A DNA stretch of 32,709 bases from a virus, in the IMG/VR virus record IMGVR_UViG_3300018063_000343, positions 1-32,709 of that record. One strand, written 5' to 3'. Both the position numbers and the translations under genes were made by a program. Shown piece after piece: positions 5,204 through 32,709 of this stretch. The notes beneath the pieces were generated by a model, which worked only from the letters and a program-made list of their open reading frames with translations, made no database searches and was not told where the DNA came from. Within the stretch, counting starts at the first letter, position 1; every line of letters begins with the position of its first letter.

Positions 5204-5437
5204 TTATTCTAAAATTTCCTTTGGCGGCTGGGGGCCATAATGAAGCTCCATTCCCCTTCGGCTCACCAGCCATGTTCCAGCCGACTTGCGGCCCTGGATA
5301 ATATCACGGTTCAGGGCCGCCCGAACCGTACCGTTTTCTAGCCCCCAAAGCTTTTCAGCTTCGCGGGCTGAAAAAACCTCGTTGAGGATTGGGTCAAAAT
5401 TTTCAATCTTGAAATTCGGGATTTTTAATGCTACCAT
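5204..5437 (-). CDS. helix-turn-helix domain protein (77 aa)
   Basis: A 77-residue protein. Residues about 21-66 look like a winged or MerR/excisionase-type helix-turn-helix: FSAREAEKLWGLENGTVRAA gives the two helices, followed by RKSAGTWLVSRRGME as a wing-like hairpin and terminal helix. Such small proteins occur as transcription regulators, recombination directionality factors or antitoxins. The neighbour order (unknown gene, HTH, unknown gene on one promoter) does not decide between these. It could bind the dyad in the operon's own promoter, but that is inference. Confidence 0.7.
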   Translation of the reverse strand: MVALKIPNFKIENFDPILNEVFSAREAEKLWGLENGTVRAALNRDIIQGRKSAGTWLVSRRGMELHYGPQPPKEILE

Positions 5438-6666: not shown

Positions 6667-6695
6667 TTGACACCACCTACTACCTGTGGTATATT
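6667..6695 (+). promoter_or_regulatory. strong sigma-70-type promoter with dyad spacer
   Basis: TTGACA (6667-6672), a 17-bp spacer, then TATATT (6690-6695). The spacer contains ACCAC-N9-GTGGT (6672-6690), a possible operator. The predicted start of transcription, about 6702, falls right at the base of the following hairpin. Confidence 0.75.
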
Positions 6696-6702
6696 AATTC
6701 TG

Positions 6703-6758
6703 CCCCCGGCGCGTAGAATTTCATCGCGAAATTACGTGCGTCGGGGGTGTTTTCTTTT
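6703..6758 (+). terminator. leader hairpin with T-rich tail (attenuator or small RNA terminator)
   Basis: Arms 6703-6722 and 6728-6747 form a long stem (CCCCCG base paired with CGGGGG, further C-G and A-T pairs, small bulges) around a 5-nt loop. It is followed by TGTTTTCTTTT. The whole predicted transcript from the promoter at 6667 would be this hairpin, so either it ends here as a small RNA or it regulates readthrough into the downstream operon. Confidence 0.65.
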
Positions 6759-6782: not shown

Positions 6783-7346
6783 GTGCCTGATGCTATCAGT
6801 CCAGAAACCGCTGCCGAGCTTTTACAATCGCTCCTGGCTCAGCAGACGAAGCTCACTATTGAGCAAAACCGGGCCAATGACCTACAGGAGCAGGAGCTAA
6901 GGCAGAAGCAACAGGCGCTAGACCTGCAAGCTCAGGAATTGGCCCTACGCCGTGAAACGCTCAATCGGGCCGAGGCGCGGTTGCAAGAAGTTTTGCAACG
7001 GTTCATCACCGCCGAGAACAAGCTGATTACATTAGACGACAGCTTCGGCGAAACAGTCCAGCGCGTGATTGTAGCCATTCGAGAAATAGCCGCTGCGCTC
7101 ATAGACGTTGAAAAGAGCAATTATGCTCTACTCACGCAGAATAGTAGCGACATTCGAGAGGCGCGGCTGGGCGGCCCGGATAGATTGCAGCGAATGAGAA
7201 AGCAGGAGCTGCTCTTACAACATCAGGAGACGCTACACACGCTCCAGCTTCAGGCGGCGGCGCACGGGAGCCTGGAAGCGCCCGTCAAACTCCTGCGCCA
7301 GATCGAGGCGGAGCAGGCCGCTATAGAGCAACTAACGAATGGTTAA
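6783..7346 (+). CDS. coiled-coil protein, first gene of accessory module
   Basis: The open frame reaches back to 6747, but that part encodes the terminator hairpin's T-rich tail. GTG 6783 with GGAGG 11 bases upstream is the likelier start (187 aa). Residues about 25-90 are a strong heptad coiled coil rich in Gln, Glu, Leu and Arg, and further helices follow to the end. There is no membrane segment. The end overlaps the ATG of the next, membrane-bound gene, so the two products may interact through coiled coils. Function unknown. Confidence 0.65.
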   Translation: MPDAISPETAAELLQSLLAQQTKLTIEQNRANDLQEQELRQKQQALDLQAQELALRRETLNRAEARLQEVLQRFITAENKLITLDDSFGETVQRVIVAIREIAAALIDVEKSNYALLTQNSSDIREARLGGPDRLQRMRKQELLLQHQETLHTLQLQAAAHGSLEAPVKLLRQIEAEQAAIEQLTNG

Positions 7347-8763: not shown

Positions 8764-8791
8764 TTGACAATTACCTCATTAAAAGTATAAT
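8764..8791 (+). promoter_or_regulatory. consensus sigma-70 promoter of the regulator gene
   Basis: TTGACA (8764-8769), 16-bp spacer, TATAAT (8786-8791): both boxes match consensus exactly. It drives the helix-turn-helix gene at 8841 and probably the HNH gene. Confidence 0.85.
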
Positions 8792-8837
8792 ATCTGTAGT
8801 TGAATACTCAACACAATGTTATACTTAAGTGAGGTAA
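8771..8837 (+). promoter_or_regulatory. inverted operator-like repeat flanking the leader
   Basis: TTACCTCA-N6-GTATAA (8771-8790) overlaps the promoter spacer and -10 box. Its inverted counterpart (8819-8837, TTATAC...TGAGGTAA) covers the SD of the regulator gene. A smaller dyad GTTGA-ATAC-TCAAC lies between them. This fits autoregulation by the encoded Xre-type protein binding two sites. Confidence 0.6.
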
Positions 8838-8840
8838 AAA

Positions 8841-9107
8841 ATGACTCTGTTGGAATATGCTACTGAGATTGACAAAGCAGAACGGGAGTACCACCGGCTT
8901 TTAGAGGATTTCTTTAGAGATGCCCCCCGGCTTTTTAAGGAGGCCAGAAAAGCAAACGGGTTATCACAAAGGGCATTAGCGGATTTACTGGGGGTTGACT
9001 TTACCTACATCTCCAAAATAGAAAATGGGCATCTTAGGCCGGGTATGCCGACGGTTCGGAAATTTGGGGAGTGGCTAAGGACTGGCAAGGTCGACTCCGG
9101 TGAATAG
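8841..9107 (+). CDS. Xre-family helix-turn-helix regulator
   Basis: An 88-residue protein whose residues about 28-82 form a classic Xre/Cro helix-turn-helix: LFKEARKANGLSQRALADLL, then GVDFTYISKIENGHLRPGMP. The N-terminal 27 residues form an extra acidic helix. It has no effector or dimerisation domain, so it is a small repressor or Cro-like protein rather than a full C1 repressor. GAGGT five bases upstream is part of the inverted repeat, which suggests self-repression. It overlaps the HNH gene by 8 bp. Confidence 0.85.
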   Translation: MTLLEYATEIDKAEREYHRLLEDFFRDAPRLFKEARKANGLSQRALADLLGVDFTYISKIENGHLRPGMPTVRKFGEWLRTGKVDSGE

Positions 9108-9951: not shown

Positions 9952-10619
9952 CCGACTTCCTCCCCGCCGCCGGCCAACCCGAAGCGTTCGCCGGCTCCTT
10001 CCCGGCCTCGCACGATACGCTGGGGCAGGCAAAGCGCCGGATGGCCTTGTCGGAAGCCTTCGCCGGTGCGTTCAACGCCTCGCCTGCCGTGCAGGGGCAA
10101 TCTAAAAGCCGCGAAACTTTCAAGTGGCTAATAGAAACCGATAACAAGCCGGCGTGGTGGCCTGATTTTGACGAAATACGGGAGGAATTTCCTCATTTCA
10201 AAAAGTGGGAAATTTGGAGCTTGATCGCCTGGGCGTCAATGCACGCGGGTCTGCGGGACCCGCGCACCCTACAAGAATTTGCAGATAGTATAAATACCTC
10301 TACTCGAACTCTTTTGACATATCGAACAAAAACCTGGGGCGACAAACCGACCGTTGATGAGGCAATAGCCACGGTAAAATCAGGTTCGATGTGGCATAGA
10401 CGTAGAAAGGTACTTACGGCGTTGGGAGATGTGGCCGAAATGCCCGACCCCAAAGCACATCCCGACCGCAAAATGTTTCTGGAAATGACGGGCGATTACC
10501 CCGCTCGGCCACGACCCGAGCCGGATCTCACCATTGACGAAACCTTCACAAAACGATTGGAGCAAATCTATCAGGATGACGGCGATATTATCGACCTACC
10601 GGCCCTTGACGCAGATTGA
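9948..10619 (+). CDS. terS: terminase small subunit-like protein
   Basis: A 223-residue protein from ATG 9948 (ATGA overlap, GGGG upstream; ATG 9936 is an alternative). Residues about 60-140 contain a helix-turn-helix-like region (WSLIAWASMHAGLRDPRTLQ, then EFADSINTSTRTLLTYR) resembling phage terminase small subunits of the phBC6A51 type. The acidic C-terminus would contact the large subunit. The position directly before the large terminase supports the call. The extreme N-terminus has two similar motifs (EAFAGSFPAS and EAFAGAFNAS). Confidence 0.75.
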   Translation: MTDFLPAAGQPEAFAGSFPASHDTLGQAKRRMALSEAFAGAFNASPAVQGQSKSRETFKWLIETDNKPAWWPDFDEIREEFPHFKKWEIWSLIAWASMHAGLRDPRTLQEFADSINTSTRTLLTYRTKTWGDKPTVDEAIATVKSGSMWHRRRKVLTALGDVAEMPDPKAHPDRKMFLEMTGDYPARPRPEPDLTIDETFTKRLEQIYQDDGDIIDLPALDAD

Positions 10620-13152
10620 GTACCGGTCCCCAATTGACCGCTTTATCATCACCGGCAAGGCGGCTGGCTGCCCGCCGGACCAGCTCCTCAATTTCCGACG
10701 CGGCAACTACCCGGCCCAACCGCGCCAGTTGGAATTTCACGCCGCCGCCCGCGAGTGCGACCGGCCAGGCGGCCCCGTGCGAGTGGGCTACGGCGGGCCG
10801 CGCGGGGAGGCGAAAGCTTTGGCAATTAATACACCCATCCCTACACCGGATGGGTGGAAACTGATGGCGGATATTGCTCCAGGGGATTACGTGTTTGCGC
10901 CTGATGGAAATCCTACTATAGTGACAAACTGCTCACCTATTATGTTCGACCAAACTTGTTTTGAAGTAGAGTTTTCGGACGGCGCTAGACTTATTGCGGA
11001 TGCTGGACATCAATGGTTGACATTTTCAAAATTAGAAAGAGGGCGCCTAAAGGGTAGAACGGACGAATTTAGAGAAAGGCGCAGAGAAAGGCGACCTTCA
11101 GTAGGAATGGGGAAAAAGCCCTGGTTAGTAGAGGCAAATAAAAATAGAATTTACTCCTACTTACCTCCTCAATGCGGGTCAGTCAGGACGACCCAGGAGA
11201 TTTTTGAGTCTCTTTATCACAATGGTGAAGTAAATCACGCTGTGAAGTTGACCGATCCGCTTTGCTTGCCTTCTTTGGATTTACCTATTGACCCATACGT
11301 ATTGGGGCTATGGCTAGGCGACGGTGACTCTTTAAGAGGTTACATAACCACTGAAGACGCTGAAATCTTACTGGAAATAGAAAATGCGGGACTTGTGGCA
11401 ACGCACCGGAAAAGATTGCGGTATCACCTCGCCGGGTTAACCACTCTGCTCCGTGAACAAAACCTGATAAAAAATAAGCACATTCCGAAAGTTTATCTTC
11501 GCGCCTCAGTTGGTCAAAGGCTAAGTTTGCTCCAGGGATTGATGGACACGGACGGCAGCGTAAATAAAAATAATGGAGGCTGTAGATTTACCTCAACCAA
11601 TCACGGGCTTGCGTTAGGGACATTGGAGCTAGCCCTTTCTCTTGGGATTAAGGCTACAATATTTGAAGGGGTCGCAAGGTTGAATGGTAAGGATATTAGC
11701 CCGCTGTGGAACGTTTCGTTTTCAACAATGTTGCCAGTGTTTAGATTGCCTCGTAAGTTAAATATTCAAAAAATGAATGGATTTACCTCGGTTATAAGCC
11801 AGCGGTTTATTGTCAAGGCTAGACCGACCATTAGCGTTCCTGTCAGGTGTATCACAGTAGAGTCCGAGTCTCATTGTTATCTGGCGGGTGATAGATTTAT
11901 TCCTACCCATAATTCACACGCGGCGCTGGCGCAGGCGGTGATGGATGACGCATGGCGGGTGGATGACCTGAAGGTTTTGTTTCTGCGGAATATCGGCAAG
12001 GCCGCCCGCGAGTCGTTTGAGGATTTGGTTCATAAGGTACTGGCCGGGTTCCCGGCGGAATACGTCGGCAGCCGCAGCCGGCTAAAACTGGCTAACGGCT
12101 CCTTTGTCGTTCTAGGCGGCTTCAAATCAGAGAGCGACATAGACAAATATATCGGGATCGAATATGACCTGATGGTGATCGAGGACGCCAACCTGATCAC
12201 CAAAACCAAAATAGACCGGCTCTTTGGCTCGCTGCGATCCTCAAAAACCAACTGGCGGCCCCGCGCCTATTTGACCTTTAACCCTGGCGGTGTAGGACAC
12301 GCCTGGGTCAAACGAATGTTTGTCGAACCCTGGCGCGCGGGGCGACAATCAGAGACGCGCTTTATCCAGGCCCGGCCTGGCGAAAATATATTTGTCAATC
12401 CCGAATACCGCCAATACCTGGATGGCCTGACTGGCTGGCTGCGGCGCGCCTGGCGTGATGGGGATTGGGATATTGCGGCGGGGCAGTTTTTCACCACGTT
12501 TCGGCGCGAGGTTCACGTCAAGAAGCCACCGTTTGCAAAAATTCCGGCAAACTGGCCGGTGTGGGCCTCGCTCGATTATGGCTTCAATCACCCAACGGTC
12601 TTTTACCTGCACACGATTGGAGACGGGATACTCTGGACAGTCGGAGAGCACTGGCGGCAGCGTTGGCAGGTGAGCCAGCACGCCGAGGCGATCAAGGCGC
12701 TTTTCGGGCGCTGGGGGGTTGCGCCGGGGCGGATCAGAAATTTTCCGGCGGGGCACGATTGTTTTGGGGATGAAGAGGATAACGAGAACCCGACCATTGC
12801 CCAGAAATACAAAAAATATGGCCTCAAACTGACCCGCGCCGATACCGACCGGGTGAATGGCTGGGCTGAAATGCTGGCCCGCCTGGGCGATCCCGACGAA
12901 GGCATAGCCCCGACGTGGTTTATTTCCGAGGATTGCCCCCGGCTGATTGAATGTTTACCTCTACTGCAACACGACCCCCACCGGCCTGAAGATGTCTTGA
13001 AATGGGACATCGACGAAACGGGGGAGGGGGGCGATGATTCGGCGGACGCGGCCCGCTACGGGCTGATGGGCGCGCCGCAACGCCGGTTCGTCGAGGCGTC
13101 CACTATCAAGCGCCCCGATCCTATCGGAGAAATGGACAAAGCCGGATGGTGA
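10576..13152 (+). CDS. terL: terminase large subunit interrupted by an intein
   Basis: The ATP-driven packaging motor and nuclease. From ATG 10576 the precursor is 858 residues; TTG 10534 is a possible earlier start. Removing the intein leaves about 492 residues, normal for TerL. The P-loop reads GGPRGEAK, then Ser after splicing. Walker B is DLMVIED, the coupling motif lies near TFNPGG, and the nuclease domain has SLDYGFNHP, a second acidic cluster (GHDCFGDEEDNE) and WDIDETGEGGDDSADA near the end. The intein splits the P-loop between Lys and Ser, so packaging ATPase activity requires splicing. The gene overlaps the small subunit by 44 bp and a 65-aa gene by 7 bp. Confidence 0.95.
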   Translation: MTAILSTYRPLTQIEYRSPIDRFIITGKAAGCPPDQLLNFRRGNYPAQPRQLEFHAAARECDRPGGPVRVGYGGPRGEAKALAINTPIPTPDGWKLMADIAPGDYVFAPDGNPTIVTNCSPIMFDQTCFEVEFSDGARLIADAGHQWLTFSKLERGRLKGRTDEFRERRRERRPSVGMGKKPWLVEANKNRIYSYLPPQCGSVRTTQEIFESLYHNGEVNHAVKLTDPLCLPSLDLPIDPYVLGLWLGDGDSLRGYITTEDAEILLEIENAGLVATHRKRLRYHLAGLTTLLREQNLIKNKHIPKVYLRASVGQRLSLLQGLMDTDGSVNKNNGGCRFTSTNHGLALGTLELALSLGIKATIFEGVARLNGKDISPLWNVSFSTMLPVFRLPRKLNIQKMNGFTSVISQRFIVKARPTISVPVRCITVESESHCYLAGDRFIPTHNSHAALAQAVMDDAWRVDDLKVLFLRNIGKAARESFEDLVHKVLAGFPAEYVGSRSRLKLANGSFVVLGGFKSESDIDKYIGIEYDLMVIEDANLITKTKIDRLFGSLRSSKTNWRPRAYLTFNPGGVGHAWVKRMFVEPWRAGRQSETRFIQARPGENIFVNPEYRQYLDGLTGWLRRAWRDGDWDIAAGQFFTTFRREVHVKKPPFAKIPANWPVWASLDYGFNHPTVFYLHTIGDGILWTVGEHWRQRWQVSQHAEAIKALFGRWGVAPGRIRNFPAGHDCFGDEEDNENPTIAQKYKKYGLKLTRADTDRVNGWAEMLARLGDPDEGIAPTWFISEDCPRLIECLPLLQHDPHRPEDVLKWDIDETGEGGDDSADAARYGLMGAPQRRFVEASTIKRPDPIGEMDKAGW
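10816..11913 (+). mobile_element. class 3-type intein with LAGLIDADG endonuclease
   Basis: An in-frame 366-residue insert. It starts with Ala instead of Cys or Ser (ALAINTPIPTPDGWK) and ends PTHN before Ser+1. Block B has H65 and W67 (AGHQW), block F has C345 in VRCITVE where most inteins have Asp, and T364 precedes H365-N366. This Trp-Cys-Thr set is the class 3 intein signature, where the block F Cys starts splicing. The two LAGLIDADG motifs are LGLWLGDGDS (Asp 169) and LLQGLMDTDGS (Asp 246), so the endonuclease looks intact. The insert is visibly more AT-rich than the flanking exteins, consistent with later arrival. Confidence 0.92.
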
Positions 13153-13343
13153 AAACCTACACCAAACCGACCTTGACCGGCAGCCGGGCCCGCACCGTTC
13201 GCCGCAGCGACGGGCTGATTGAATACCGGGATAAGGAGACCAACGCGCTGTTGTTCCTGTATGATCCTACCCGGCGGATTATCCAAATCCAAAAGCGGGG
13301 CAGGCGTTCAATTGGGGAATTGCCACTTGACAACCCGGTGTGA
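13146..13343 (+). CDS. small hypothetical protein between terminase and portal (65 aa)
   Basis: ATG 13146 overlaps the end of the terminase by 7 bp. The 65-residue protein is basic with a beta-rich look (DGLIEYRDKETNALLFLYD, then RRIIQIQKRG). No family is recognised. The TTGACA at 13327-13332 lies within its last codons. Confidence 0.65.
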   Translation: MVKTYTKPTLTGSRARTVRRSDGLIEYRDKETNALLFLYDPTRRIIQIQKRGRRSIGELPLDNPV

Positions 13344-13356
13344 GGTGTGGTAGTAT
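13327..13356 (+). promoter_or_regulatory. probable promoter ahead of the structured interval
   Basis: TTGACA (13327-13332), 18-bp spacer, TAGTAT (13351-13356). The -35 box is perfect and the -10 matches four of six. Predicted transcription would start around 13363 and run into the structured region and its terminator. Confidence 0.5.
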
Positions 13357-13437
13357 AACGGCATAGCTTCGTAATGAAATGCCATAAGGCATAGATAGGC
13401 GGGGCAGGCACTACTCAGAAGCCACACCTGCCTCGCC
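13344..13437 (+). ncRNA. candidate structured RNA between terminase and portal
   Basis: No ORF covers this interval, yet it is densely self-complementary. GGTGTGG (13344-13350) pairs with CCACACC (13422-13428). An 11-nt arm at 13398-13408 pairs with 13427-13437 (one mismatch). These two pairings interleave, as in a pseudoknot, and their 3' arms overlap by two bases, so they may also be alternatives. GGCAT (13360-13364), ATGCC (13379-13383) and GGCAT (13388-13392) offer two competing hairpins. A promoter lies upstream and a strong terminator downstream. It could be a small RNA or a leader controlling the portal operon. It is not a tRNA: the T-arm is missing. Confidence 0.45.
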
Positions 13438-13464
13438 AAAAACTAAATAATTACAGCGACTTAG

Positions 13465-13510
13465 AGCGCACCTTAAGGAAGGTTTTTCTTCCGGGTGCGC
13501 TTTTTTATTT
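13465..13510 (+). terminator. strong intrinsic terminator before the portal gene
   Basis: AGCGCACC (13465-13472) pairs with GGTGCGCT (13494-13501). Inside it GGAAG (13477-13481) pairs with CTTCC (13488-13492). The stem is followed by TTTTTTATTT. It separates the packaging genes from the head and tail genes, so late expression would need readthrough, antitermination or another promoter. Confidence 0.85.
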
Positions 13511-13523
13511 CCCACCATTAACG

Positions 13524-14927
13524 ATGAACTTTCTTCAGCGCATCGGTCAGGCAATCGTAAAACTCACCTCCCTCGTCACCGGCTACACGCCCGACAAGCG
13601 CGTGACCGACGACGGCAACTGGGACCTTATCGCCGGGGGCAATGGCCCCTCGGACCGCAACTGGCGCGACATCGAAACCGACCTCAAGGACACCCTGGAG
13701 GCGTGGCGCAAAAACTTCCTCGTTCGCCAGATCGTGCGCCTGCTGACCGCGTATGTGGTCGGCGATGGGATCAAAGTCGGCAGCGAGCGCCGCCAGATCC
13801 AGAAGTTCAGCGACGAGCTTTGGAGCCACGAGCAAAACGAAATCGAGGAGCGTATACCGGCATGGTGCGACGAACTGACCCGCGCCGGCGAGATATTTAT
13901 CGCTCTGTTTACCAATCCCGTCGATGGCATGTCCTACGTTCGCGCTATTCCCGCCGCTTCTATTCGCAAGGTTGAATGTGACCCGGAAGACTACGAAAAA
14001 GAGCTTTATTTTTACGAGACGATCCCCGGTCAGATTGAACCTAAACAGTGGAAATCCAGGCATACCGGCGGCCCCAAAGAGCCGATCTTGCTCCATTACA
14101 CCATCAATAAACCCATCGGTGCGACGCGCGGCGAAAGTGACTTGACGCCCGTGCTTCCTTGGGCCAAGCGATACTCTGAGTGGCTCAAGGACCGGGTGCG
14201 CTTCAACCGGCTACGGACCGAGCTGGCCGCCGTGGAACTCCGCACGAAGGGCGATGTCGAGGCGCGCAAAAAGTCCATCCAGAGCAATCCACCCATCAAT
14301 GGCAATATTGTGGTCACCCAGATGGGCGAAGAAGAACTTATTTTCCATTCCGCCCAGATCGAGGGTGGCGACGCCGAACCCGACGGGCGCGCCCAGCGCC
14401 TGGCCATTGCTACCGCCGCAGACATCCCCCTACATTTTATGGGCGAGGGAGACACGGCCAACCGGGCCACGGCGGTTGAGATGGGCGACCCGACCCATCG
14501 TTTCTACCGGGTGCGCCAAAACGAAATCGTAAAAATCCTCAAAAAACTGGTCAAGCAGGCGTACCTTCGCAAAGTGGCCCTGGGCCTGGCCCGCCTGCCC
14601 GCCAATGGAGACCTGAAACTGACCGCCGAAGTGCCCGACATCAGCCGGGCCGACAACGGCGCGATGGCTACGGCGGCGGCAACTATCGTCAACGCCTTTG
14701 CGGTGATGAAAGCGCAGGGGTGGATCACGGACGAAATCGCGATCCGGCTGGCGTTCAAATTTGCCGGGGAGATTTTGGACGAGGAGACCATTCAGGAGAT
14801 TTTGGACGCGGCGGAGGCGGAAGAGCCGGAAGAGGAAACGCCGCCGAAGGATGAAGAGGAGGAGGATCAGATGTCGGCTTACCCATTCGAGAATTGGGTA
14901 TTATCGCAGGGGCGAAATGGCAGATAA
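13524..14927 (+). CDS. phage portal protein
   Basis: A 467-residue protein that would form the dodecameric ring at the capsid vertex through which DNA enters. Portal features include the N-terminal wing region (LEAWRKNFLVRQIVRLLTAY), the repeated acidic helices, and the segment DIPLHFMGEGDTANRATAVE typical of the portal stem and crown area. The C-terminus is an acidic Glu-rich tail. Its position after the terminase and before the protease/capsid gene is standard. The ATG at 13524 has no SD and lies 14 bases after the terminator's T-rich tail, which is unusual for a highly needed protein. It overlaps the next gene by 11 bp. Confidence 0.9.
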   Translation: MNFLQRIGQAIVKLTSLVTGYTPDKRVTDDGNWDLIAGGNGPSDRNWRDIETDLKDTLEAWRKNFLVRQIVRLLTAYVVGDGIKVGSERRQIQKFSDELWSHEQNEIEERIPAWCDELTRAGEIFIALFTNPVDGMSYVRAIPAASIRKVECDPEDYEKELYFYETIPGQIEPKQWKSRHTGGPKEPILLHYTINKPIGATRGESDLTPVLPWAKRYSEWLKDRVRFNRLRTELAAVELRTKGDVEARKKSIQSNPPINGNIVVTQMGEEELIFHSAQIEGGDAEPDGRAQRLAIATAADIPLHFMGEGDTANRATAVEMGDPTHRFYRVRQNEIVKILKKLVKQAYLRKVALGLARLPANGDLKLTAEVPDISRADNGAMATAAATIVNAFAVMKAQGWITDEIAIRLAFKFAGEILDEETIQEILDAAEAEEPEEETPPKDEEEEDQMSAYPFENWVLSQGRNGR

Positions 14928-18706: not shown

Positions 18707-18722
18707 GGGGGAGAGATAGGAG

Positions 18723-18784
18723 AGTAGCCAGTAGCCAGTAGTCAGATAAAACAATTCTTGTCTGACTACTGACTACTGACTCCT
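18723..18784 (+). repeat. heptamer hairpin repeat, copy A
   Basis: Left arm 18723-18749 consists of AGTAGCC, AGTAGCC, AGTAGTC and AGATAA. After an 8-nt loop, the right arm 18758-18784 is the imperfect inverse (TTGTCT then three GACTACT-type units). The roughly 27-bp stem has four mismatches or wobbles. It lies between the connector and the next tail-completion gene, with no T-run. Confidence 0.9.
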
Positions 18785-18795
18785 AGCAATCTGAT

Positions 18796-19182: not shown

Positions 19183-19613
19183 TGGCTATTCCGGCGATTA
19201 TCTACGACATTCCAATGGGGCAGGTCAAGGCCGAGATTGAGGCGGAGCAACGGCGCATCGAGCGCGGGCTGAATGGGGCCGCGGACGACTTGCTTACCCT
19301 CGCGGGGCTAGTCCAGGCCGAAAGTTATCTCAGTACTTCGATGCCCGCCCTCCCGCCCGGTTCCGCATACGAGCGCACTTTCACGCTAAGGGAGGCCAGC
19401 AAAACCCGGCGCACCGGGACACACCTACCCGACATCTCAGGCGAATGGTACATCGACGAGGGGATTGCGCCTTACGGGGAGGATGTGATTGGGCCGAAGG
19501 CCAAACAGAAACCAATCCACCAGGGGCGCTGGAAATCACAAGAGGGCATCGAGGCGGCGGTTGAGGCCAAAGCGCCGGAAATTATTAAAGAGAGATTAAG
19601 AAGTAGTCAGTAG
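19182..19613 (+). CDS. HK97 gp10-like tail completion protein
   Basis: A 143-residue protein from GTG 19182. The helical N-terminal part and the segment with Arg-rich strands resemble gp10-like head-tail joining proteins. The last codons (SSQ and stop) are made of the left arm of heptamer hairpin copy B, so the natural C-terminus was probably altered by the repeat. Position between the DUF3168-like gene and the tail tube gene supports tail completion. Confidence 0.55.
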   Translation: MAIPAIIYDIPMGQVKAEIEAEQRRIERGLNGAADDLLTLAGLVQAESYLSTSMPALPPGSAYERTFTLREASKTRRTGTHLPDISGEWYIDEGIAPYGEDVIGPKAKQKPIHQGRWKSQEGIEAAVEAKAPEIIKERLRSSQ

Positions 19614-19665
19614 TCAGTAGTCAGACAAAAACTTTTCTTATCTGACTACTGACTACTGACTACTT
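19601..19665 (+). repeat. heptamer hairpin repeat, copy B
   Basis: Left arm 19601-19628 and right arm 19638-19665 are 28-nt inverted copies with a single mismatch, built of AGTAGTC heptamers around a 9-nt loop. It supplies the stop codon of the upstream gene. Copy C at 26517-26544 is identical to the right arm. Confidence 0.95.
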
Positions 19666-31404: not shown

Positions 31405-32709
31405 TTAGCCCAAAATCACGAACATATCCAACCACGTGACACGTTCCTCGGACTTCGCCTCAATCGACGTTGCGAACAAGTCGAAAAGCGGCGCAGCCTG
31501 GGGCGATGGAAAAATCGCCGCGATCTGGCCATCCACGATCTTGATCCGCTGAATGAACTCCCGTAGCATCACCTTCTGCTGGTGCGGGTCGGCCTCCGAC
31601 AATTGTCCCATAGGCCCCATTATTTCATCTATCAGCGCGTCTACCTCGGCGGCGTCGGCGGGCGTCACCGTCGTCTTTTCCAGCCGCTGGATCTCCGCCC
31701 GCAACGGCCCGTCGCGGCGGTCGAACTCCGCCCGGGTGATTGCGCCCGTGATCCGCAGGTCGATCAGGCGCTCGTGATCCTCGCGCCGCTGCTGCAGCTC
31801 GGCCTGGTCGCCCTCGTCCTCGCTGGCCAAAAGGAGCGCCCTCAGCCGCTCGGCGCTCTGGCGAAAAATCGGCTCGCAGCTCGTAACCCGCTCGACGAAT
31901 TCCAGCACCTCCGCCTCCAGGTCCAGCGCCGGGAGCATCCGCTCGGTGCAATCCCCCTTACTGTACTGATGGCGATAGTAGTAATGCCGCCCGTGCTGGG
32001 CGTGCTGGCCACCCAGCGCCTGGCCACAGCGCCCGCAGTAGAGCAGTCCGGATAACAGGTACAAATGGTAGCCCGACCTGTCGCTCGCCCGGCGGGATAA
32101 ATGCCGCGCCTGAAAAACTACGCCCACCCGCTCGCACAACTCGACCGGCAGAATTGGCTCGTGGCCGCCGGGTAACACCGGCCGGTTGCGGTGCTGCTTG
32201 ATCGGCGTCGTCGGCGATGGGGGCAGCTCGCCGGCGTAGAGCTGCCAATGACGGATGACGCTGTGGACGGTTTGGCGGTTGAAGGGTTTTGGGGCGGTAA
32301 GGTTTTGTTCCCAATGTCGCCAGCCAGCGAGGTTGAGCGCGTGACCTACCTCGGCAACGCTGTAATGCCCGTTGCTGTAGTAGTCAAAAATGGCGCGGAG
32401 GCTGTCGTGAAAATAACGCTTTTCCCAGGGCGGCGGCAATTCAATGCCGTCAGGTACCACCTTGCGAGTGGATGGGTCGCGCCGGTAGGCCGGGCGAGCT
32501 TCTTGGGTAATAGGATTATACCAATAAAAGCGGGTTGAAGGGATCAAATGTTTGGTAATTTCATCACGGCCACAACCGAATGGGGCAGGCCCCCAATGCC
32601 TATGTAGTGTCTGGACTTTGTAGGCCACAGTGGCCGCCATTCGTTCAGAGGACTTGGAACTTTCCCACTCAGCAATACCCATCAGCAAAGAGGCCATCAT
32701 TCTGCCATC
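31405..32709 (-). CDS. large serine recombinase (phage integrase), partial
   Basis: The coding region runs off the right edge, where the reverse strand reads DGRMMASLLMGIAEWESSKS, the end of the catalytic domain with the start of the E helix. Visible parts: a recombinase domain (about residues 25-190 of the visible part), a zinc ribbon with CGRCG and a later Cys (GDCTERM), and a coiled-coil region (about 270-370) with heptads. The catalytic Ser lies outside the window. It would integrate the phage by attP x attB recombination. The attachment site, usually next to the integrase start, is not in the window. Confidence 0.92.
   Translation of the reverse strand, partial: DGRMMASLLMGIAEWESSKSSERMAATVAYKVQTLHRHWGPAPFGCGRDEITKHLIPSTRFYWYNPITQEARPAYRRDPSTRKVVPDGIELPPPWEKRYFHDSLRAIFDYYSNGHYSVAEVGHALNLAGWRHWEQNLTAPKPFNRQTVHSVIRHWQLYAGELPPSPTTPIKQHRNRPVLPGGHEPILPVELCERVGVVFQARHLSRRASDRSGYHLYLLSGLLYCGRCGQALGGQHAQHGRHYYYRHQYSKGDCTERMLPALDLEAEVLEFVERVTSCEPIFRQSAERLRALLLASEDEGDQAELQQRREDHERLIDLRITGAITRAEFDRRDGPLRAEIQRLEKTTVTPADAAEVDALIDEIMGPMGQLSEADPHQQKVMLREFIQRIKIVDGQIAAIFPSPQAAPLFDLFATSIEAKSEERVTWLDMFVILG

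Follow-up and report, generated by a model that had tools for sequence, protein, structure and literature searches.

The window analyzed here is the whole 32,709-nucleotide stretch of IMG/VR virus record IMGVR_UViG_3300018063_000343, and the locus of interest lies on its plus strand, between the terminase and portal genes. The terminase large subunit gene (positions 10534 to 13152; recognized as terminase with PHROGs) is interrupted by an intein, and its product belongs to ordinary large-subunit families. The intein is of the LAGLIDADG type; it apparently lies within the Walker A motif, between GPRGEAK and S, and apparently begins with Ala instead of Cys or Ser. The end of the terminase gene is overlapped by a 65-amino-acid open reading frame (ORF) (13146 to 13343, plus strand), which had no relatives in IMG/VR and whose 3' end contains the -35 element and most of the spacer of the promoter described below. 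The portal gene (13524 to 14927, plus strand) starts with an ATG about 17 nt past the T run that ends the terminator, and no clear Shine-Dalgarno sequence was seen at this start.

The gap between the two genes (13344 to 13523) is 180 bases long and holds no credible ORF, in agreement with the sequence-only reading of the locus, which had described a gene-free stretch of about 180 bp. The single ORF of at least 60 amino acids that reaches into the interval is an 84-amino-acid frame on the other strand (13157 to 13411), and it is mostly antisense to the 65-amino-acid ORF. A short frame at 13374 that could encode a leader peptide, MKCHKA, is not preceded by a Shine-Dalgarno sequence.

Because relatives of the portal protein occur in Chloroflexota metagenome-assembled genomes (Ardenticatenia and Thermoflexales) and in 60 of 400 Chloroflexota genomes, the host of this phage, as judged from its portal relatives, probably belongs to the phylum Chloroflexota. 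The phage is probably temperate and equipped with a serine recombinase, since its minus strand encodes a protein carrying the PF13408 domain (recombinase zinc beta ribbon; 31405 to 32700) and an excisionase-like protein (5204 to 5437).

Promoter and terminator of the interval

A sigma-70-like promoter is predicted on the plus strand at 13327 to 13356, with TTGACA at 13327, an 18-nt spacer, an extended -10 element (TGTGG), and TAGTAT. The TTGACA promoter noted earlier was found again, and transcription from it would start near position 13363. The plus strand of the window contains five promoter sites scoring at least 10 of 12, compared with 0.8 expected from dinucleotide shuffles, and two sites of the same quality that also carry the TGn element, compared with 0.03 expected from shuffles. 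The remaining strong plus-strand promoters include one at 6667 and a 12/12 site at 8764 that precedes a helix-turn-helix (HTH) gene. No other promoter-like site was seen between the terminator and the portal gene.

The region from 8764 to 8845 combines a perfect TTGACA-16-TATAAT promoter ahead of the HTH gene (8841 to 9107) with a long inverted repeat (TTACCTCATTAAAAGTATAA / TTATACTTAAGTGAGGTAA), the 5' arm of which overlaps the spacer and the -10 element and the 3' arm of which immediately precedes the start codon; from its position, this repeat looks like an autoregulatory operator of the HTH gene. An operator common to the promoters of the window (TGAGGT, present in the 8764 unit and at 13341) did not exceed chance, and neither did any spacer motif common to them. 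An 11-nt direct repeat, GCGGGGCAGGC, occurs at 13295 to 13305, within the 65-amino-acid ORF, and at 13399 to 13409, in the 5' arm of the 11-bp hairpin described below, with no further copies in the window.

The strong intrinsic terminator proposed for the interval was confirmed by prediction at 13465 to 13506 (plus strand), about 144 nt past the promoter -10 element. It has a perfect 8-bp outer stem (AGCGCACC/GGTGCGCT) that encloses a nested hairpin and is followed by TTTTTT. The hairpin is worth about -22 kcal/mol, and the terminator alone gave a z score of -5.7 against shuffles. A simple terminator scan overlooked it because its loop contains the nested hairpin.

Predicted fold of the leader

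The segment from 13344 to 13512 folded better than its shuffles (z = -5.4), and the portion before the terminator gave z scores of -3.0 and -4.2. Only the terminator and the hairpins before it were robust in the fold prediction. Two leader hairpins are predicted on the plus strand: a 5-bp hairpin, ATGCC-ATAA-GGCAT, at 13379 to 13392 (probability, 0.86 to 0.98) and an 11-bp hairpin, GGCGGGGCAGG/CCTGCCTCGCC, at 13398 to 13437 (arms 13398 to 13408 and 13427 to 13437; probability, about 0.98 to 0.99), which includes one GU pair and an 18-nt loop. The competing GGCAT/ATGCC hairpins that had been proposed do exist, but the competition is unbalanced, at about 0.98 versus 0.02.

Two interleaved long pairings, of 7 and 11 bp, had also been described, and both can be found in the sequence, but they are mutually exclusive. 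The shorter one pairs AGGTGTGG with CCACACCT (13343 to 13350 with 13422 to 13429; 7 to 8 bp), and its ensemble probability was 0.4% even if its 5' arm is taken as transcribed, compared with about 99% for the 11-bp stem. The two pairings compete and cannot both form fully because bases 13427 to 13429 are common to both. Additionally, the 5' arm of the shorter pairing lies on the plus strand within the promoter spacer, upstream of the start expected near 13363, and this pairing would therefore be missing from the proposed transcript. Perfect stems of at least 7 bp arose in 24% of shuffles and those of at least 8 bp in 9%, while 11-pair stems, GU pairs included, arose in 1%. The 11-pair stem is unusual; the interplay of pairings behind the idea of an RNA switch is not.

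Comparison with known RNA families

The interval matched nothing in Rfam at the gathering score. The weak match to the DUF2800 RNA (RF02960) reached 24 bits, with an E value of 0.018. The window resembles this family in having a hairpin, an A-rich linker (AxAAxUAAAUAAxxACAGC), and a U-tailed hairpin, but the outer helix is broken in the interval. This candidate was rejected: its 24 bits fall below the gathering score of 60.2, a search with the whole record returned no match, and a control terminator gave a chance match of similar strength (E value, 0.037). A true member of the family, from locus L077 (123 bits), sits in an unrelated gene setting. A tRNA, suggested by GGTGTGG...CCACACC together with TAGTATAACGGCATAG, was also rejected. 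ARAGORN was negative in its default, intron, and mitochondrial modes, lowered thresholds produced artifacts on the other strand only, and no Rfam tRNA match was obtained.

Search for homologues of the leader RNA

The comparison covered about 70 related phage loci, and the relatives fetched were portal relatives at 38 to 57% identity and terminase relatives at 24 to 55% identity. The window terminase had no match in the loci of the portal relatives save one at 26%, and thus two modules meet at the terminase/portal junction. In most portal relatives, the portal gene overlaps its upstream neighbor or follows it after no more than about 25 nt; those at 50 to 57% portal identity usually have no gap, and most relatives have no terminator at this junction.

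Searches of the related loci with blastn and nhmmer found no homologue of the interval DNA, only matches of chance length, and the same was true of phage records, exact scans of IMG/VR, and 301 Chloroflexota genomes. A covariance model of the leader, built from one sequence, matched only itself in the related loci, plus a weak antisense self-match. Applied to 400 Chloroflexota genomes, it gave three matches, all of which were rejected: one lies inside a metal-transporter gene, and the other two are one and the same terminator hairpin, located between chromosomal genes in two genomes. Because these matches proved unrelated, we judged the E values of the model too optimistic. By these sequence comparisons, the folded body of the RNA is not conserved among the relatives searched, and the collections searched yielded no close homologue in which compensatory base changes could be compared.

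Recurrence of promoter-leader-terminator units

A second unit of the same layout is predicted on the plus strand of the window at 6667 to 6755. It runs from TTGACA-17-TGTGGTATATT through a 12-bp hairpin and a U-rich run to a Shine-Dalgarno sequence and a gene; its promoter (TTGACA-17-TATATT) carries TGTGG before the -10 element, and the unit is gene-free. The GTG start listed at 6747 falls in the tail of the terminator of this unit, and the GTG at 6783, after GGGGGAGG, is the likelier start of the gene.

Among the terminase relatives, locus L043 has such a unit at the same terminase/portal junction as the window: its promoter immediately follows the terminase stop codon, and about 60 nt of leader separate this promoter from a strong terminator, with the portal start a few nucleotides further on. 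Over 21 nt, the L043 terminator can be aligned with that of the window (CGGGTGCGCTTTTTTATTTCC versus CGGGCGCTTTTTTTTATTTCC); the local score of this alignment was reached by 0 of 300 shuffles, although terminators share such features anyway. More promoter-terminator units were found in L003 (two), L032, L034, and the record of L059 (three). Overall, the order of promoter, 40- to 150-nt leader, terminator, and gene occurs in about five related phage records.

We also counted terminators around promoters, with thresholds that were set after seeing the window and with the window's own two units counted in. In the related loci, 12 of 88 strong promoters had a same-strand terminator 20 to 260 nt downstream and 3 had one upstream, the corresponding numbers for the other strand being 0 and 3. 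Extended -10 promoters numbered 21 in 25 phage records, compared with 3 for a control with the pattern reversed. With the window included, a terminator lay downstream of 13 of 23 extended -10 promoters and upstream of 4, several of the terminator calls in this count falling within coding sequence. One-sided sign tests gave values of only about 0.02. Leader length and sequence differed in every unit compared, and the leaders of relatives differed in structure as well. Such variation would be expected under selection for the architecture and not for the RNA. Half of the related units had no hairpin besides the terminator.

The two L003 promoters (at 448 and 640) each contain the palindrome AGAAC-N4-GTTCT in the spacer, which resembles LexA boxes of the Gram-positive type, and an 80-amino-acid LexA-like DNA-binding ORF lies between terminase and portal in this locus. 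Direct SOS control of the L003 late promoters is possible on the basis of these sequences.

Interpretation of the interval

We favor, with a probability of roughly 50%, the explanation that the interval is a promoter-proximal attenuator, or terminated leader, which would control the head genes by regulated readthrough and would work like lambda PR'-tR'. A transcript would start near 13363 from the sigma-70-type promoter at 13327 to 13356 and would normally stop at the terminator, giving an RNA of about 140 to 145 nt. The head genes, from the portal gene onward, would be transcribed on readthrough, either by an antiterminated (modified) polymerase late in infection or by transcription arriving from upstream. 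The promoter, the leader, the terminator, the second copy in the genome, and the recurrence in related phages are all sequence-based predictions. The interval had earlier been taken for a short RNA or a switch controlling late genes; an initiated and terminated leader before the head genes is well supported as an architecture, and late-gene control is its most likely purpose, but a switch built on the two long pairings is not supported. The body of the RNA is best read as a by-product or an orphan small RNA.

In lambdoid phages, antitermination control yields the short terminated PR'-tR' transcript as a by-product, from which a small RNA can be processed, as with StxS in Stx phages (PMC7873438), and lambda late promoters show sigma-dependent pausing (PMC4604602). 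The window appears to share with these phages a strong sigma-70-type promoter followed within about 200 nt by a terminator, before late genes. It differs in that the unit sits between terminase and portal, with a second unit further upstream, and in that no Q-like protein was recognized among the window proteins scanned. Neither Pfam nor PHROGs revealed any antiterminator in these proteins, many of which had no family at all, and no early gene was common to all genomes with such units. For these reasons, we describe the interval as working like the Q-controlled class and not as a member of it. The put antiterminator RNA of phage HK022 is a leader RNA with two hairpins near a terminator in a phage operon. 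The window interval likewise has a two-hairpin leader adjoining a terminator in a phage operon, but no sequence relation to put was seen, and the lack of nonterminator hairpins in half of the related units is a further difference.

Regulated readthrough is the likeliest use of the interval, followed by a plain operon boundary and, third, by a trans-acting small RNA. Under the operon boundary explanation, which is possible but the less probable one, the terminator ends the terminase transcript where the terminase module of one phage meets the head module of another, and the promoter-like site is weak or has no special control. The different phage lineages of the terminase and portal are consistent with this, and so are the terminators directly after the terminase genes in L043, L065, and L072, with no promoter-like site in the latter two. 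However, an ordinary boundary does not need a same-direction promoter upstream of its terminator, an order that recurs at 6667 and in relatives, and no other promoter-like site is seen after the terminator, ahead of the portal gene.

An independent small RNA, made from the same promoter and terminator and acting in trans on phage or host messages, is unlikely. The StxS precedent (PMC7873438), the promoter- and terminator-bounded leader with its two hairpins, the better-than-shuffled fold before the terminator (z = -3.0 to -4.2), and the rarity of the 11-pair stem (1% of shuffles) argue for it, but no RNA homologue was found in any related locus, where the leaders have other sequences, lengths, and structures. 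It is more doubtful still that the interval acts in cis as an RNA switch, with the terminator opened or closed by competing pairings on sensing of a ligand, a protein, or the ribosome. The alternative fold, which contains the 7-bp pairing, is less stable by just 3.2 kcal/mol, and competing GGCAT/ATGCC elements are present; however, this alternative fold depends on bases that precede the expected transcription start, and neither competing fold is predicted to touch the terminator stem. A switch built on the two long pairings, as first suggested, also has to contend with their mutual exclusion, with one of them lying outside the proposed transcript, and with the absence of any Rfam family, conservation, or similar RNA in relatives.

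Phage phi29 encodes its small pRNA close to packaging or head genes, and the window interval is also near such genes. The analogy with packaging RNAs drawn earlier came from this position between terminase and portal, and a packaging RNA for the DNA-packaging motor is extremely improbable, since no pRNA family or other Rfam family matched at the gathering score, neither sequence nor structure resembles that of phi29, the terminase is of another type (ordinary large-subunit families), and the RNA is missing from relatives whose portal or terminase belongs to the same family.

To our knowledge, late gene control has hardly been studied in phages of Chloroflexota. As a speculative extension of regulated readthrough, which we think improbable as a whole, these phages and the relatives that share modules with them might use a recurrent set of "start-stop" late promoters, as many as two or three in a genome and each with its terminator, that are opened jointly by a still undescribed type of antitermination factor or cis-acting leader RNA. 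If the favored explanation is true, processive antitermination at late promoters would extend to phages of Chloroflexota, and the recurring units offer a concrete route to the antitermination factor. For the specific folded RNA, we found no evidence of a new RNA class.

Elsewhere in the window, two intergenic hairpins of very high stability, built from heptamer repeats of the TAGTCAG type, lie at 18720 to 18785 (z = -4.1) and 19603 to 19663 (z = -7.2); these are the strongest folds in the window and look like repeat elements.
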